DNA of 64,000 bases from Fidelibacterota bacterium (GTDB taxonomy: Bacteria > Fidelibacterota > Marinisomatia > Marinisomatales > Marinisomataceae), in assembly GCA_019654715.1 (NCBI GenBank), contig BPEH01000004.1:1-64000 (forward strand), read 5' to 3'. Below the pieces are notes generated by a model that did not search any database, was not told the origin of the DNA, and saw only the letters and a program-made list of their open reading frames with translations. Positions 2,251 through 20,805 of this stretch are shown piece by piece. Numbering within the stretch: the stretch's first letter is position 1; every line of letters starts with the position of its first letter. Made by a program: the position numbers and the translations under genes.

Positions 2251-3459
2251 GCTTAATACTCTTAGAAAACGTCTTTTTCCAACCTTAATTACAAATTCGC
2301 CACAACCTTTTTTGAGAATATGCGCTAGATCGTTACAAACTTTCCCATCTATTTTAACCGCATTTTGTGTCATTAGACGCTTGGCTTCTGCTTTGCTTGA
2401 AACAAGATTCTGCGATACAAGAATATCAATCATATTAGAATCTGTATCAATAGTGAGGGTTGGAATATCATCTGGAATGTCTTTTTTAATAAATATTTTG
2501 TCAAATGCATCTTCAGCTTTCTTTGCTTTATTATCGTCATAATAACGGGAAACTAAATCTCTTGCTAAATCTCGCTTGATATCACGTGGATTTATTGAAG
2601 AATCGCTCAATTTTTTATCGATAGAAGCTAATTTATCTCTATCGGCAAAAACAGCTAATTTGTAGTATTTTTTAATCATATCATCACTAATTGATAATAA
2701 TTTTCCATACATATCTTCTGGAGAATCATCGAAAGCAATATAATTATCATATGATTTCGACATCTTCTCTACCCCATCAGTCCCCTCTAATAAAGGAAGA
2801 GTAACAATAATTTGAGGATCTTGATCATACTCTCTTTGTAAATCTCTACCAACTAATAAATTAAACTTTTGATCGGTACCACCCAATTCCACATCTGCAT
2901 TAATCTCAACCGAGTCCATTGCTTGTGCCAAAGGATACAAAAATTCATGCATTGAAATAGGAATTTCGGATTCAAAACGTTTTGTAAAATCATCACGCTC
3001 AATCATACGAGCAACAGTATACTTACTACTCATATTTATCACATCTTCGAATGTCATTTTGTTAAGCCAAGTACTATTGAATAAGACTTTAAGGCTTTTT
3101 ACATCAAGTACTGCTTTAGATTGCTCAATATAGGACTTTGCATTCACTTTTGCTTCATCTATGGTAAGCTGCGGACGTGTTTTATTGCGTTCAGAAGGGT
3201 CTCCAATCATGGCTGTAAAATCACCAATAACTAGTATTGCTTGGTGTCCTAAATCTTGAAAGTCTCGTAGTTTTTGTAATACAACAGCATGCCCAATATG
3301 TAAATCTGGCCTACTAGGATCACAACCTAACTTAACAATAAGTGGGGTGTTCTCGTCGATAGATTGCTCTAATTTCTTACGAAGATCTTTAAGCGGAATA
3401 ACCTCTTCTGTTCCCCTCGAAATGATTTCTAATTGGTCATCAACAGGTAAAAAACCCAT
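2248..3459 (-). CDS. tyrS: Tyrosyl-tRNA synthetase
   Basis: Class I aminoacyl-tRNA synthetase charging tRNA-Tyr, 403 residues. The nucleotide-binding HIGH is at residues 54-57 and KMSKS at 232-236, which places it in the KMSKS-type bacterial TyrS group. The last roughly 60 residues form an S4 RNA-binding domain. The stop codon of smpB and the start codon of tyrS share a base (TAATG), so translation is probably coupled. The frame is intact from start to stop. Confidence 0.96.
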   Translation of the reverse strand: MGFLPVDDQLEIISRGTEEVIPLKDLRKKLEQSIDENTPLIVKLGCDPSRPDLHIGHAVVLQKLRDFQDLGHQAILVIGDFTAMIGDPSERNKTRPQLTIDEAKVNAKSYIEQSKAVLDVKSLKVLFNSTWLNKMTFEDVINMSSKYTVARMIERDDFTKRFESEIPISMHEFLYPLAQAMDSVEINADVELGGTDQKFNLLVGRDLQREYDQDPQIIVTLPLLEGTDGVEKMSKSYDNYIAFDDSPEDMYGKLLSISDDMIKKYYKLAVFADRDKLASIDKKLSDSSINPRDIKRDLARDLVSRYYDDNKAKKAEDAFDKIFIKKDIPDDIPTLTIDTDSNMIDILVSQNLVSSKAEAKRLMTQNAVKIDGKVCNDLAHILKKGCGEFVIKVGKRRFLRVLS

Positions 3460-12556: not shown

Positions 12557-13266
12557 TCTAAACTATTAACAATCTTTTTAAAACTCTGATTAAGATCAGT
12601 AATCATAGATTCTGTGTAAGGATTAAATTTTTGAATATCTTCAAACAATTCCCAAGAATCATTACAGGTTTGATTAACTAATTTATGAAGTGCTTGATAA
12701 CCAACGGTATCAATATTTGTTTTCTGAGTTCCAAAATCATTTATTACCCGTCCAATCAAGTGCGTAAGACCTTGTGATTTGGCTGCCATCATATCATGCT
12801 GATCAGCAGTAATTTCTTCTATAATAATATTCTGACTTCCAAAATAAGATTTCCAAAAACCATATCGATCATGTTGATCTCGTACTTTTTCCATCATCAT
12901 TACTGAACCCGTTCTTGAAAAGAATCAGGCCCAAATAACGGATGGGTTGCAATAATATCAACTTCTTGGGATAAATGTTCTATCATCATATTTTTTGGGT
13001 GATTTTTACAGAACAAACATCAATAACTGTCTTGTTTCCTTGTATTTTTGTGGAAAGATCTTTCATTAATTCCTCAAAATCTCTTATAGGTACTCCCAAA
13101 AAAATGGTATCATTTTTTAACACATCCTCTAAAGAAACAAAAGGAACTGATTCGGTTTCATTATTAGAATCAATATCGAATACGTCTACTTCAAACCCTT
13201 TTTGCAATAATTCGTATAAAAAATTTTCCCAAAACGTCCAAAACCAATAATGCTAACCTTATTCAT
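12532..13266 (-). CDS. tyrA: Prephenate dehydrogenase, frameshifted
   Basis: NAD(P)-dependent oxidative decarboxylation of prephenate on the way to tyrosine. The gene opens at the ATG at 13266 (MNKVSIIGFGRFGK), a Rossmann GxGxxG nucleotide site. It needs a shift in the T-run near 13220 to reach LLQKGFEVDVFDID, another near 13003 to read NMMIEHLSQEVDIIATHPLFGPD, and one near 12903 to join MMEKVRDQHDRYGFWKSYFG. The HPLFGP motif is a family hallmark. The end (KKKRLPK) is encoded within the terminator hairpin. It is the last gene of the aromatic operon and overlaps pheA by eight bases. Confidence 0.85.
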
Positions 13267-13834
13267 CCCCATCCAACCTTTCTATTGCAAGAAATAATGT
13301 TAAATTTTTCTTTAAATCATGAATATCATGTTCAATAATGTTTAATCCGTACTTTTCTGCACATTGTTTGCTTGCAATTACTGCAACATTGTCTGACAAT
13401 TTATTCAAAGAAAGGTCTTGAGCAGATTTTGCAGTATCATCTGTTTCAACAAGTTTCTTGGACCAAAACTTCTCGGCAAGATAATCTTTACATTGTTTCA
13501 GTGCTTGTTCATGAGAATGCACCTCTTCAATTTCTCCAAGGGATATATTCTCTTTTGGGCCCTAAAATTTTGGCTAATTTCTATATAAAACATATCAAGA
13601 TTTTACATTTATTCTCTGCCAAGCTTCTACGCTTTCTATTACAACGCCCCCTTGCGCATTTTCCATCGCAAAAATACCTACATCAATGGTATTATCGCTT
13701 ATGCCATTTAGTACATTCATTGAGCTTACTAAATACGCTAATTCAAAATCATTTATATCAAATTTATCGCAATAAAATTTTGCTGCTTGTTCACTAAAAC
13801 TCCCCTCTAATCCTTGAATACCTACCCTTTTTTA
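13259..13834 (-). CDS. pheA: Prephenate dehydratase, catalytic domain, frameshifted
   Basis: Converts prephenate to phenylpyruvate for phenylalanine synthesis. Joining frames gives VGIQGLEGSFSEQAAKFY, then GIFAMENAQGGVVIESVEA (the substrate-binding E-N-x-x-G-G region), KILDMFYIEISQN, LGPKENISLGEIEEVHSHEQAL and a C-terminal TAKSAQDLS / AVIASKQCAEKYGL part. At least two shifts lie at about 13560-13625. The start is uncertain: no ATG is seen where MKK-VGIQG would begin near 13834, suggesting another error in ATAAAAAAGGG. No ACT regulatory domain follows before tyrA, so the enzyme would be about 190 residues and not feedback-sensitive through ACT. Confidence 0.75.
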
Positions 13835-14261
13835 TTTTGTCTCCAATATATGCTTAATTGCTGTTATGTATCCTTGTTTTCCCTCACCAACAACTTGGGC
13901 CAAACAAACACTTTTTATAACTGAAATTTTTCTAAAATTTTCACGATTATGAATATCAGACAAGTGGATCTCAACAGCTTTCATATTTGTACCAGCAATT
14001 GCATCCCTAAGCGCATAAGAATAATGTGTTAATGCTCCAGGATTAATCACCAGATGATTGACTTCTTTTCTCTTAGAATGAAGAAAATCAATAATTGCTC
14101 CTTCAGAATTTTGATTGAAAAAATTCTAAATCGAGATTCTGACAAATATCGTGATTTTTAATCCAATCATTAATCTCATCTAAGGTATCAGAACCATAGA
14201 TTTCTGGTTCTCTTTCACCTAACAGATTTAAATTGGGTCCATTTACTATAATTATCTTCAT
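13832..14261 (-). CDS. aroQ: 3-dehydroquinate dehydratase, type II, frameshifted
   Basis: Third shikimate step. The start at 14261 reads [23 protein letters not shown], the classic type II opening with the catalytic tyrosine. One extra base near 14117 breaks the frame in [14 protein letters not shown]. The second part holds [33 protein letters not shown] and a C-terminal [10 protein letters not shown]. The full length of about 142 residues is normal. It sits between aroB and pheA in the operon. Confidence 0.9.
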
Positions 14262-14295
14262 AAAACACTTAAGCTTTCTTTAATATTGTCCAATG

Positions 14296-15314
<1,019 letters not shown>

Positions 15315-15315
15315 T

Positions 15316-15823
15316 TTATCCATGAATATGTTTGGTTATTGTTACACAATTTTCTTTTATAGAAGAATTATTAGTATCTATTTTTATTGTCGATAATGTT
15401 TCATATCTAGATTGCCTATCCTCAAAAATATTTTGCAATGCTTCACGTTTATTTCCATTTGATAATAACGGTCTTGAATCATCATGTTCTAATCGCTGAC
15501 AAAGACTATCAATTGAAGCATATAAATACACACAGAATGATTGTTTTAATATCTCATGGTTTGATTCATCTAGAACAATCCCTCCACCTGTGGAACATAC
15601 AATACAGTCTTTTAACGCTATTTCTTTTAACTTCTTTGTTCCTGTTCACGGAATTGAGGTTCTCCATTTATAAACATATCACTTATCGACAAATTATGAT
15701 CCTTTTCTAGTTCATTATCAAAATCATAAAATGTCCAATTTAGGAATCTGCTAATGCTTTTCCTGTAGAAGACTTTCCAGAACCCATCATGCCTATTAAA
15801 AAGATTTGATTAATATTTTCCAC
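15316..15823 (-). CDS. aroK: Shikimate kinase, frameshifted
   Basis: ATP-dependent phosphorylation of shikimate. The likely start is GTG at 15823, overlapping the aroC end, giving (M)[25 protein letters not shown] with the P-loop GMMGSGKS. Several shifts between about 15750 and 15540 break the middle, where fragments such as FDNELEKDHNLSISDMF can be read. The C-terminal frame from 15531 reads YLYASIDSLCQRLEHDDSRPLL, the family lid region. The joined length of about 168 residues is normal. Confidence 0.82.
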
Positions 15824-16964
15824 TGCTTTTTATGTGTTTTTTTTTAAATTTTTCTAAACTATCTCCACCGAATTTCTCCAACAACGCATCCGCTAGCACA
15901 ATTGTTAACATACTTTCGCCAATAATAGATGCAGCAGGCACGGCACAAGAATCTGTTCTTTCTTTGTGTGCTAATTTTGGTTCCATTGTGTTCAAATCAA
16001 TAGATCGAAGTGGTTTTATAAGCGTTGATAACGGTTTCATGCTTACTTTGACATGAATTGGTTGTGCATTGCTCATCCTCCTTCAATTCCGCCAGCATTA
16101 TTGCTTGATCGAGTAATTTGTCCATCTTCATAGAGTATCTCGTCATGCAATTCACTACCAAACACCGCTCCCGAAGCAAATCCAGCCCCTATTTCTACAC
16201 CTTTAAATGCATTCACAGACATCATTGCTTGTGTAATCGTGCTTGTAATTTTCCGTCCGCGTTAATATAGCTACCAAGTCCATAAGGCAACCCGTTAGCA
16301 ATCACCTCAAATGAACCCCCTACAGAATCTCCATTTTCTTTTGCTTGATCAATTATGCAATCATTTTTTTTCTGTTTTTTTATCAAGACATCTGACAGGA
16401 GATTTATCCACTGTTTTATTTAATTTTTCAAGATCGTATTTCTTTAACAGATGTATCTCTACCACTTATGGATTTGATAAACACGGCTACCAACTGTAAT
16501 TCCTACTTCTTCCAATAATCTTCTACACACCGCACCAATAGCAACTCGCATCGCTGTTTCTCGTGCAGAAGAACGTTCTAATACATTTCGAATATCATCA
16601 AAATCTACTTCATAACCCCAGCTAAATCGGCATGTCCTGGACGAGGCATACTGACTTTTTTATGCTCTTTTTTTGGTGTCCCAACGGGCCCTTCTATCTT
16701 CCCAGTTTACCCAGTCCAAATTTTTAATTAATAAGAAATTGGGAACCCAATGTAATTGCATGACGCACACCTGAAAAAAAACTCGGCATAATCTTTCTCA
16801 ATTTTCATACGTTTTCCTCTACCATGTCCTTGCATTCTTCTAAACAAATCTTTGGCAATATACTCTTCGGTAAGATGCATTCCAGCCGGAATCCCTTCTA
16901 TAATCCCAATTAATCCTTTTCCGTGTGACTCTCCTGCGGGCATATACGATATTTTTTTCAACAT
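15810..16964 (-). CDS. aroC: Chorismate synthase, frameshifted
   Basis: Final common step, making chorismate from EPSP with reduced FMN. The N-terminus at 16964 has [19 protein letters not shown] and [15 protein letters not shown], both diagnostic. The C-terminal frame has [31 protein letters not shown], also diagnostic. Between about 16760 and 16080 the frame changes several times; the middle is only partly readable but still coding-like. The start overlaps the aroE end by seven bases. The joined length of about 384 residues is normal. Confidence 0.88.
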
Positions 16965-17785
16965 AATACGTTCTCCAATTGTTTTTTGATTGAATCCAGT
17001 TTTGGGCCCACATTATAAGTAGTTTCTGTCCAAATTTCAATAGACTTCAGCGCTTGAAAGATGAGCATATCCAATCCATTAATAGACTGCTTGACATTAT
17101 CTTTGTATTTGTCCAAAAAAAGCGTGTGATTGGATGTATAAATCAAGTCAATAAGAATACTGTCTTGATGTATAGGAATATTAAAAAAATTATCCTTATC
17201 ATCTTGTTGATACATTCCAAGTGGTGTGGTATTAATCGCCAAATCAAATTTGATGTCAGCTTTATCAAATATCTGAATATCTATGTCAGAAATTGCTTGT
17301 GCATATGCTTGTATTTTTAATGCATTTTCCATTGATTTATTTTTGATAGTAATGGATGCTGCATGCGCATCAATTAATGCTTTTACAATCGTCTTAGAAG
17401 ATCCTCCTGCGCCCAATACAAGACAGTGTTTTGATTCCACGCTAATATCATTATGATGGAGCATCATTTCAAATCCATATAAATCGGTATTATACCCTTT
17501 TAGACTGTTCCCTTTTCTTGTAATACAATTCGCATTGCCTAAGATTTTCACACTTTCATCCAATTCGTCCACAAACTCTAAACCATGTTCTTTGTGTGGG
17601 ATGGTAATATTGATTCCATCAAATGCTCCTGCCTTAAAAGCATCAAAAAAAGAAGATAGTTCTTCAGAAGAAATATCATTCTTCTCATAGGTACAATCTT
17701 CCAAATTGAAGGTATCAAAAAGAATTTTTTGTAACTCTGGGCTAATGCTTTGATGCACTGGGGTTCCTATTAATCCTAATTTCAT
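16958..17785 (-). CDS. aroE: Shikimate dehydrogenase
   Basis: NADPH-dependent reduction of 3-dehydroshikimate. The 275-residue frame is intact. The substrate site shows HQSISPELQ at the start and NITIPHKE near 60, with the catalytic Lys; the Rossmann nucleotide loop is LGAGGSSKT near 128-136, and INTTPLGMY is near 190. The ATG at 17785 overlaps the aroA stop (ATGA), so translation is coupled. It is one of only three undamaged genes in the operon. Confidence 0.95.
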   Translation of the reverse strand: MKLGLIGTPVHQSISPELQKILFDTFNLEDCTYEKNDISSEELSSFFDAFKAGAFDGINITIPHKEHGLEFVDELDESVKILGNANCITRKGNSLKGYNTDLYGFEMMLHHNDISVESKHCLVLGAGGSSKTIVKALIDAHAASITIKNKSMENALKIQAYAQAISDIDIQIFDKADIKFDLAINTTPLGMYQQDDKDNFFNIPIHQDSILIDLIYTSNHTLFLDKYKDNVKQSINGLDMLIFQALKSIEIWTETTYNVGPKLDSIKKQLENVLC

Positions 17786-19028
17786 GATTGCATCACCTCG
17801 ATTGTATTAAAAAACCCTGGTAAGGAGATATTGATGCATTCCTTATTATCAATCTCATATTTCCCAAATGCGGCAATACTTAGCACAATAAATGCCATTG
17901 CAATACGATGATCATCAAACGATTGCACTGTTGCCATAGTTGGATGACCGCCCTCTACAATAAGACTATTATCTTCTTCGTATGCATTAATCCCAAAATT
18001 CTTCAGATTATCTATAATTGCTTGCAAACGATTGCTTTCTTTGAATTTTAATTCTTCTACTCGGTTAAAGACGGTTTTACCATCTCCAAATGCAGCTAAT
18101 ACTGCTAAAATTGGTATTTCATCAATAATCGATGGAATAATGTAGGCTGGAACCTCAAAACTGTTAATTGGGGATGAAATAAACTCAACATCTCCGCATA
18201 ATTCTCCATGATATAATGTTGATTGGATATATTCATCTGAATATTAATTTTTTCCAACACATTCATAAACCCAATACGGGTTGGATTAAGCAACATATTA
18301 CGAATGGTAAGCCTTGAATCTTTTGCCAAAATTGCCAATGCAATAAAAAACGATGCAGAAGAAGGATCAGATGGAATCTCCAAGTTAATAGGAGTTAGCG
18401 GTGATGAAAGTGGTTCCACCCTAATATCATTATCGTTTACTAAAATGGTTGCACCCATATCCTGTAACATAATTTCGGTATGGTCTCGTGAACTGTTTAA
18501 CTCCGAAACATTAGACGATGATTCTGCTCCTAATCCTGCTAACAAAATAGAGGATTTTACTTGGGCACTTGCCACAGGCATTTTGTAGTTAATTCCATTT
18601 AATGGATTCGATGCATCTACTGTTAATGGAAGCAATCCATCGTTGGATTCAATACTACACCCCATTTCTGTAAGTGGGACGATAATTCTGTTCATTGGTC
18701 TTGCAGATAAGGAAGCATCTCCTGTCAACGAAAACTGAAGACGTTGGGAAGACAAGAGCCCAGATAACAATCTCGCACTTGTCCCTGAATTTCCACAATC
18801 AACAGGTTCGTCAGGATTTCTAAGTTTTGTTCCTGTAATAACAACCTTTTCTCCATTTTGATCAATAGAAGCACCGCATGCTCGTAAGGCTTGAATGGTG
18901 GATTGTACATCTTTTCCATCATTGAGATTAGTAATTTCACTTACCCCATTTGCAATCGATGCTAACATCACTGCCCGATGGGAGATAGACTTGTCTCCTG
19001 GTAAAGAAATAGTAGTATTAATGGCCAT
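17782..19028 (-). CDS. aroA: EPSP synthase (3-phosphoshikimate 1-carboxyvinyltransferase), one frameshift
   Basis: Transfers enolpyruvate from PEP to shikimate-3-phosphate. The start at 19028 (MAINTTISLPGDKSISHRA) is chosen because it opens the mature enzyme and overlaps the DAHP synthase end by 11 bases. LPGDKSISHRAVM, DCGNSGTSARLL and the later SAQVKSSILLAGL and SRDHTEIML are family signatures. One missing base near 18240 splits the gene; beyond it the frame reads DEYIQSTLYHGELCGDVEF, ESNRLQAI and GGHPTMATVQSFDDHRIAMA. Full length is about 415 residues. Confidence 0.93.
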
Positions 19029-20367
19029 TTTTCTCCATCTCTTCTGCAATATTAAAAGAAAGCTCTAACGCTTGATTGGCATTCAATCGGGGATCACAAT
19101 GGGTGTGATATCTTGAGTGCAAATCTTTATCACTGAGCTTATATAATCCGCCAGTACATTCGGTAACATTTTGACCAGTCATCTCGAGATGAATCCCTCC
19201 TAAATGGGACCCTTTCGACTTTAAGATATGAATGGCCTTAGTGGTTTCATTTAAAAGGGATGAAAAGTCTCTTGTTTTAAGCCCTTCTGAAGATTTCACT
19301 GTATTCCCATGCATTGGATCTGAAATCCATAATACTGTCTTGTTATGTTTATTGATTGTATCTACTAGAACCGGTAAATGTTGATCGATATTTTCTTCTC
19401 CATATCGGAAGATGAGCGATATTTTTCCAGCTTCATTTTCGGGATTTAATATGTCAATAATCTTGAGTAATTCATCCGGATCTAATGATGGCCCACATTT
19501 GATTCCGATTGGATTATTAATCCCTCGACAAAATTCTACATGTGCACTATCAATAAATCGGGTTCGATCTCCAATCCAGATAAAATGGGCTGAGGTACAA
19601 TAAACTTTATTGGATAGTGAATCAACACGGGTTAATGCTTCTTCATAAGGTAAATGCAACCCTTCATGACTGGTATAAAAATCAACGGTGTTTAAATCAA
19701 TGACTTGTTCGGTATTAATTCCTACTGCGTCCATAAAATCTAAATATTCTGTAATTTGATTCGCAATTTTCTCATATTTCTTTCCTTCTTTACTGCTCTT
19801 CACAAATCCCATATTCCATGAATTCACTTTACGTAAATTGGCAAACCCTCCTTGCGCAAAAGATCGCAATAAATTCAAGGTAGAAGCAGATTGAGAATAA
19901 GCACGCAACAAACGTTCTGGATCAGGTTCTCTTGCTTCTTTGGTAAACTCTATCCCGTTTACAGAGTCTCCATAATAGCTATTTAAGGTCGTTCCATTCA
20001 CAGTTTCTGTGTCGGAAGACCTTGGTTTCGTAAATTGACCGGCAATACGTCCCAGTTTAATCACGGGCACCTTCATTTCAGAAGTAATGACCGCACTCAT
20101 TTGCAAAATGACACGAAACGTATCTCGAATGTTATTGGCAGAAAATTCCTTGAAGCTTTCTGCACAATCTCCTCCTTGTACTAAGAATGCTTTGCGTTCT
20201 GTTGCCTTGGCTAGTTCTGCTTTTAAATTGTTACACTCTCCAGCAAATACTAATGGTGGAAAGGTATTTAATCGTGCAATAATCTTATCAAGTTTGTTTT
20301 GATCTTTATAAGGAGGAATATGTTTTATTGTACAGTCTTTCCAAGAATCTTTTTTCCAATTTTTCAT
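19018..20367 (-). CDS. DAHP synthase, class II (plant type)
   Basis: First committed step: PEP plus erythrose-4-phosphate to DAHP. The 449 residues fit class II enzymes. Signatures include FAGECNNLKAELAKA, FLVQGGDCAESF, KLGRIAGQFTKPRS, GIKCGPSLDPDELL, WISDPMHGNT and GGIHLEMTGQNVTEC; the metal and PEP ligands are in these segments. The frame is intact. One base separates it from the chorismate mutase gene upstream, an association often seen because the mutase can work with or regulate DAHP synthase. Confidence 0.95.
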   Translation of the reverse strand: MKNWKKDSWKDCTIKHIPPYKDQNKLDKIIARLNTFPPLVFAGECNNLKAELAKATERKAFLVQGGDCAESFKEFSANNIRDTFRVILQMSAVITSEMKVPVIKLGRIAGQFTKPRSSDTETVNGTTLNSYYGDSVNGIEFTKEAREPDPERLLRAYSQSASTLNLLRSFAQGGFANLRKVNSWNMGFVKSSKEGKKYEKIANQITEYLDFMDAVGINTEQVIDLNTVDFYTSHEGLHLPYEEALTRVDSLSNKVYCTSAHFIWIGDRTRFIDSAHVEFCRGINNPIGIKCGPSLDPDELLKIIDILNPENEAGKISLIFRYGEENIDQHLPVLVDTINKHNKTVLWISDPMHGNTVKSSEGLKTRDFSSLLNETTKAIHILKSKGSHLGGIHLEMTGQNVTECTGGLYKLSDKDLHSRYHTHCDPRLNANQALELSFNIAEEMEKNGH

Positions 20368-20368
20368 C

Positions 20369-20626
20369 TTATTTCTCCGCCTTTTTTGATTCGGTGATAA
20401 TGGATTGATAAATATTTTTTAAAAACGTGGCTTCTTTTTCAGAAAACAAGGATTCAATCTTCTCATAAATCGCATTTTCTCTACTTTGATCCAAAATGGG
20501 TAATCCTTCTTGTTTTTTCACCTCTCCGATGGCTGTAACTGCTTCTAATCGATCGATTAATAATTGAAAGACTTCCCTATCAATGGTATCAATCTTTTCT
20601 CGTATTGTTCTAATTTTTTCGTTCAT
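20369..20626 (-). CDS. Chorismate mutase, AroQ class
   Basis: 85 residues from the ATG at 20626, which follows an AAGGG about eight bases upstream; an ATG at 20647 lies within the leader and is less likely. The all-helical AroQ pattern is visible: IREKIDTIDREVFQLLIDRL at the start with the active-site arginine, AIGEVKKQEGLPILDQSRE in the middle, and IYQSIITESKKAE at the end. It rearranges chorismate to prephenate and is the first gene of the ten-gene aromatic operon. Confidence 0.93.
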   Translation of the reverse strand: MNEKIRTIREKIDTIDREVFQLLIDRLEAVTAIGEVKKQEGLPILDQSRENAIYEKIESLFSEKEATFLKNIYQSIITESKKAEK

Positions 20627-20643
20627 TCTTATCCCTTTATATA

Positions 20644-20674
20644 ACAAAAAACCCCAGTGGGGTTCACTGGGGTT
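20644..20674 (-). terminator. Attenuator terminator before the aromatic operon
   Basis: A ten-pair GC-rich stem (AACCCCAGTG / CACTGGGGTT) with a five-base loop, followed by TTTTG. It lies only 18 bases before the chorismate mutase start, so it would block the whole operon when formed. Confidence 0.85.
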
Positions 20675-20740
20675 TATGTAGTTTTCTATATGGTCCTATT
20701 CTTAGGTCCCTACATAACCCCTTCCATTAAAATAATAGTA
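20646..20740 (-). promoter_or_regulatory. Operon leader with antiterminator and terminator alternatives
   Basis: The minus-strand leader can form two exclusive folds. The antiterminator pairs GGGGTTATGTAG (plus-strand 20710-20721) with CTACATAAACCCC (20669-20681), 12 pairs with one bulged base. The terminator pairs AACCCCAGTG (20665-20674) with CACTGGGGTT (20650-20659). Both need the CCCC at 20669-20672. The antiterminator loop contains GGACC twice, eight bases apart. A -10-like TATTAT lies just upstream near 20733. A five-codon ATG-GAA-GGG-GTT-ATG-TAG frame is present but has no aromatic codons. The ligand is unknown. Confidence 0.65.
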
Positions 20741-20805
20741 AAAATTTTGATTACTTTTCATATTGAACAATATTACGGAATAGATAGGACAGTTGGCAAG
20801 GAAAA

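Follow-up and report, generated by a model that had tools for sequence, protein, structure and literature searches.

What controls the Phe/Tyr operon found on the minus strand of the 64,000-nucleotide stretch of DNA analysed here (the whole of which is referred to as the window), and what does the short leader in front of it respond to? A sequence-only reading had placed, at 20646-20740, a candidate attenuator or new riboswitch ahead of a ten-gene aromatic operon, and all ten genes indeed lie within positions 20632 to 12559 of the window (Table 1). They make up the complete Phe/Tyr route, without the Trp branch, and the same operon, with exactly ten genes, is present in an intact relative (G023; DAHP synthase (DAHPS) and chorismate mutase assigned by homology). 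In the window, aroA, aroC, aroK, aroB, the dehydroquinate dehydratase gene and tyrA are split by frameshifts (12559-19049); the copies in relatives are intact, and the frameshifts probably reflect errors in the sequencing behind the source assembly and not pseudogenes. The close relatives of the DAHP synthase all come from uncultured Marinimicrobia (Neomarinimicrobiota), the nearest being AG-426-A04 (91%). A DAHP synthase 57% identical to that of the window is also encoded on a contig labelled Pelagibacteraceae AG-909-E04 (CACFYB010000007.1, L057), and in one genome from the genus of the window species (G012; L027/L030, at about 263-265 kb on C1) the genes for DAHP synthase and TrpA contain many stops and frame changes, reflecting either decayed genes or poor assembly.

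Table 1. Leader elements and operon genes in the window, listed in the direction of transcription.
Feature	Position	Strand	Remarks
Predicted -35 box	20794..20799	-	TTGCCA; consensus scan
Predicted -10 box	20770..20775	-	TAATAT; 8 nt before leader ATG
Leader ORF	20702..20761	-	19 codons, MKSNQNFYYYFNGRGYVGT then stop; ATG 20761-20759, TAA 20704-20702; no Shine-Dalgarno motif
Regulatory codons 7-11	20729..20743	-	TTT TAC TAT TAT TTT (Phe-Tyr-Tyr-Tyr-Phe)
Antiterminator 5' arm	20710..20721	-	GGGGTTATGTAG; within last codons of leader ORF
Antiterminator 3' arm	20669..20681	-	CTACATAAACCCC; its CCCC (20672-20669) doubles as terminator 5' arm
Intrinsic terminator hairpin	20650..20674	-	arms AACCCCAGTG (20674-20665) and CACTGGGGTT (20659-20650); T run to 20646
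aroQ-type chorismate mutase	20369..20626	-	first structural gene; PF01817
Class II DAHP synthase	19018..20367	-	PF01474
aroA (EPSP synthase)	17782..19049	-	frameshifted in this assembly
aroE (shikimate dehydrogenase)	16958..17785	-	
aroC (chorismate synthase)	15813..16964	-	several frameshifts
aroK (shikimate kinase)	15322..15823	-	frameshifted
aroB (3-dehydroquinate synthase)	14302..15323	-	frameshifted
Type II 3-dehydroquinate dehydratase	13835..14261	-	frameshifted
pheA (prephenate dehydratase)	13262..13831	-	
tyrA (prephenate dehydrogenase)	12559..13272	-	frameshifted

The element is very probably a ribosome-mediated transcription attenuator, with a 19-residue leader peptide as the sensor of Phe and Tyr. 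The open reading frame, its codons, the two RNA structures, their conservation and the target pathway are all read from sequence. It had been claimed that the only short leader frame is without Phe, Tyr or Trp codons; this does not hold, as a 19-codon ORF, whose ATG lies 21 bases outside the interval considered, on the upstream side, contains the run FYYYF just upstream of the antiterminator. As is characteristic of attenuators, these clustered codons specify amino acids whose synthesis the operon encodes. When the region was dinucleotide-shuffled 5000 times, a run of five out of five Phe/Tyr codons in an ATG-initiated ORF never arose. An equivalent Phe/Tyr-rich ORF (e.g. MKNFFNYYYFRSRGTVEA, MSKFYNYYFYFRSRGTVEA and MKNFNYYYFYFRCKGTIGA) is present in 18/18 leaders found in the genus of the window species (L001-L017 and L025, all located ahead of aroQ-DAHPS). 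A further 24 leaders from more distant genomes have one too, bringing the number modelled to 42. In the genus, 14 leaders have the same length; among these, the aromatic run has undergone synonymous or Phe-to-Tyr and Tyr-to-Phe changes only, and L003-L006 differ in length by one codon, in frame. Across the whole genus leader, the codon-position test gave no third-position excess (9/12/11), since constraint acts on the aromatic run alone and all other residues are free. One of the genus-type leaders (L006/L043; G059:C76) comes from a contig that is assigned to another genome of the same order and whose DAHP synthase shares 85% identity with that of the window; this contig is probably misbinned from the genus of the window species. 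The reading frame is conserved; the leader would be translated, and read-through would respond to charged tRNA. Since the Phe/Tyr-rich peptide is present and conserved, classic peptide attenuation, which had earlier been dismissed, explains the element.

The second part of the same dismissal, that a T-box does not account for the leader either, is borne out by our data. Aromatic operons of Firmicutes are under T-box control, which speaks for direct sensing of uncharged tRNA by such a riboswitch; it is, however, extremely improbable here, as there is no Rfam T-box match even at an E value of 10, the leader is not long enough to hold a stem I and a conserved coding leader peptide is present instead. 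In the Rfam search of the leader, no family, T-box included, reaches its gathering score, and the sub-threshold matches to His_leader (26.8 bits vs 49), PyrR and Phe_leader most likely reflect chance or a generic similarity between terminators.

The antiterminator and terminator described previously were recovered at exactly the same coordinates on the minus strand, and the CCCC segment common to both makes the two folds mutually exclusive. Both are more stable than dinucleotide shuffles (z -2.7 and -3.4). In an alignment of 17 genus leaders, 99.3% of antiterminator cells are paired and one G-C pair, which in the window joins 20713 to 20678, is replaced by A-U, with both sides changed, in four species, whereas in the terminator four pairs are doubly changed; sliding the partners destroys the pairing of both helices. 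Compensating changes in the antiterminator are seen again in a second alignment, made from other families. The covariation check suggested for related leaders thus came out in favour of conserved pairing and supports an attenuator, not a ligand-binding fold. The same two structures could in principle be toggled by a metabolite or a bound protein, with two GGACC copies in the antiterminator loop serving as contacts, and the existence of two mutually exclusive structures that are not accounted for by any Rfam family fits such a model. The GGACC copies are present as described (20709-20705 and 20696-20692), but a contact role is not borne out: even among leaders of the genus they lack conservation, the antiterminator loop that contains them is among the most variable parts of the leader, and no conserved ligand-binding core was found in this would-be sensor region between the antiterminator arms. 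Conservation falls instead on the peptide, with its coding run, and on the two helices, and the leader codons change with operon gene content (see below), which a ligand-binding fold does not predict. We therefore regard a new riboswitch or a protein-binding RNA as very unlikely, and retain the peptide attenuator.

In the proposed mechanism, plentiful charged tRNA-Phe and tRNA-Tyr would allow the ribosome to pass FYYYF and reach the stop codon, where it would cover the antiterminator 5' arm, leaving the terminator to form and the operon off. With either charged tRNA scarce, the ribosome would stall in FYYYF, just upstream of this arm; the antiterminator could then form and the polymerase would continue into the ten Phe/Tyr synthesis genes. 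Whereas stalling and the response of the cell are things we infer, the switch itself was modelled: a ribosome, with its footprint assumed to be that of E. coli, was moved codon by codon over the 42 leaders, and the ability of the free RNA to sequester the terminator 5' arm was read out at each position. In all 42, the arm can be sequestered as long as the A-site lies within the run of aromatic codons (modelled probability about 0.5-1.0); sequestration falls once the last or the penultimate of these codons is reached and is low until the stop in most of the leaders. In the model, a stalled ribosome hence frees the antiterminator arm and a terminating one covers it, from which it follows that a stall for charged tRNA-Phe or tRNA-Tyr would allow read-through and a finished peptide would permit termination. 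The stalled and passed states are separated less cleanly for two leaders (G030 and G024), and the last Phe codon of the window run is a position where the model already breaks the antiterminator. Since the modelled antiterminator forms without a ribosome on the ORF, no protector hairpin is predicted.

The window species can also form an alternative 7-bp hairpin (GAACCCC-ACU-GGGGUUU, -8.4 kcal/mol), which adjoins the U-run and is compatible with the antiterminator, so that antitermination might be leaky and read-through perhaps incomplete in this species. Because this hairpin could terminate transcription even in the antiterminated state, it lends some credit to a simpler view, namely that a constitutive, leaky intrinsic terminator tunes the level of the operon and that the upstream ORF is incidental. 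We give this view a very small chance, as the antiterminator is conserved, the aromatic run is kept at a constant distance and the choice of codons fits operon content in several families; a codon-sensing attenuator remains our reading. A nearly complete relative (G019) was scanned genome-wide, over 1.02 Mb and 307 terminator-like sites, for short ORFs that contain an amino-acid run and lie ahead of a terminator and a gene; the aromatic leader locus was the only convincing match. The other candidates look like chance matches, with GTG or TTG starts or positions inside genes.

How the leader ORF is translated is suggested by its promoter. In 33/42 leaders, a -10-like TAWHHT hexamer ends 6-8 nt ahead of the start codon (shuffle mean 3.1, maximum 10), a -35-like hexamer is located 16-18 nt from the -10 position in 22/42 (maximum 4 in 500 shuffles), and Shine-Dalgarno motifs are almost absent from the 42 leaders. 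The layout in the window, TTGCCA-N18-TAATAT-N8-ATG, is also that of a distant genome (G031). From promoter spacing, the predicted transcript start is most likely the leader ATG itself or a position no more than about 2 nt away, so the leader ORF would probably be translated as a leaderless mRNA. Across the phylum (245 genomes), TTAATAT-N8-ATG usually outnumbers the reversed motif used as a control, which hints that leaderless mRNAs may be widespread in Marinimicrobia.

Across the order, the leader codons tend to follow operon content. In other families, the DAHP synthase gene sits in trpEGDCFBA-pheA-tyrA-DAHPS-aro supraoperons, and the leaders of these trp+phe+tyr supraoperons typically encode YYSWYWFF, as in G031. 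Leaders of trp-less operons, which start at pheA, read, for example, YYSLYRFF (G087), FYSLYWFF (G101), YYSGYWFF (G081), YFSSYYFF (G090), YFSGYYFF (G092) or YYSSYFFF (G091). Trp is found in the run, alongside Tyr and Phe, in 12/12 leaders with trp genes vs 3/16 leaders that lack them (Fisher p 1.5e-5). A tree built on PheA+TyrA+DAHPS implies about 10 switches of trp state and about 9 of the presence of Trp in the run; of six supported independent pairs, 4.5 on average point in the same direction and 0 in the opposite one (sign test p about 0.06). By raw counts, the association between leader codons and operon content is hence strong, and it is consistent, but once shared descent is corrected for it is no more than borderline. 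An operon of a different composition, trpEGDCFBA-DAHPS without pheA or tyrA, is preceded by the leader MKLILKSIKTTNQLIWWYNYGGTL and a strong terminator (L142 in G095, upstream of trpE at 3422). This leader is Trp-led and without Phe, yet two Tyr remain, so the codon rule is a tendency rather than exact. In G079, no aromatic leader was found upstream.

The loss of trp genes has left traces in some of these genomes, which are metagenome-assembled (MAGs) or single-amplified (SAGs). No trpA match above the family cut-off was found genome-wide in genomes with trp-less operons, save for a remnant in G081. In both G081 and G054, the start of trpE is joined to the end of trpA, and these fusion scars, taken as assembled, lie between an intact aromatic leader and pheA (L037 in G054, 2719-3066; L146 in G081, near the leader). 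Their junctions differ, and the trp genes would therefore have been deleted in place at least twice. The G054 leader keeps both Trp codons and the G081 leader keeps one.

Within the genus of the window species, trpA was not found in 18/24 genomes, including G001, G019 and G023 (95-98% completeness). Four species with trp genes (G006, G010, G011 and G018) have these directly upstream of the Phe/Tyr-controlled operon, under an attenuator of their own before trpE, with the GTG-start peptide VKNSLKTWKWYFQVGGSVL or close variants (WKWYF), a terminator of the form CCCCG..CGGGGTTTTTTTT and again a -10 box near the start. The Phe/Tyr leader then precedes aroQ, such that one genome contains two operons with two codon-matched leaders. 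The trpE leaders are found at L161 (G011, from 7421) and likewise at L162-L164, with a GTG start and ..TWKWYFQ.. in the peptide. We think it likely that Marinimicrobia control the whole aromatic pathway by a family of leaderless, multi-aromatic attenuators, whose codons are rewritten with the operon: Trp+Tyr+Phe leaders would serve supraoperons, Trp codons would give way to codons for Leu, Gly, Arg, Ser or Phe/Tyr once the trp genes are deleted, and split operons would have separate leaders.

If true, this family is a natural mutation series for a codon sensor that tracks its regulon. The two scarred genomes are rare intermediates beside relatives without any Trp codon, and the scar series makes the decay rate of regulatory codons after gene loss directly testable. 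It also yields a sequence-based prediction for streamlined, uncultured cells, namely that Phe and Tyr are sensed and that many of them, in which trpA was not found, are Trp auxotrophs. The attenuation mechanism is a textbook one and the element therefore adds no new class of RNA switch; the mechanism is apparently undescribed in Marinimicrobia, no report of a leader-peptide attenuator from this group being found in the open-access literature searched (subscription papers were outside its scope). Leader-peptide attenuation would thereby be extended to an uncultured marine phylum, with one peptide sensing two amino acids, or three in relatives.

Like the E. coli pheA leader and the trp, his and phe attenuators of Proteobacteria, the window leader combines a short ORF containing a regulatory codon run with an antiterminator and an intrinsic terminator that compete for one segment, upstream of genes that make the sensed amino acid. 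In contrast to the E. coli pheA leader, it would sense Tyr as well, controls the whole common pathway and both branches, and lacks a predicted protector hairpin; its score against Rfam RF01859 (Phe_leader) is below the gathering cut-off (20.4 bits vs 55). In 2010, leader peptides were known only from Proteobacteria and Actinobacteria, to which a survey of that year added Firmicutes (PMC2965389); the histidine leader peptides of Firmicutes (PMC2965389) and the leader peptides of Actinobacteria (PMC1262725) are likewise cases of attenuation outside Proteobacteria, and for Actinobacteria no conserved RNA elements are reported ahead of Phe or Tyr operons (PMC1262725). The Sinorhizobium meliloti trpL attenuator RNA is leaderless, its 5' end being the ATG of its leader ORF (PMC7298713); it is likewise a leader-peptide attenuator but, unlike the window leader, whose leaderless start is predicted from promoter spacing, it senses Trp only and belongs to Alphaproteobacteria. 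In the Mycobacterium tuberculosis ilvB1NC attenuator, a ribosome at the leader stop codon masks the antiterminator and the cognate codons are LVVI (PMC13236596). The window leader has in common with it the two-structure, stop-codon-masking design and the use of several different cognate codons, whereas the amino acids and the phylum are others and the mycobacterial leader is not described as leaderless there (PMC13236596).
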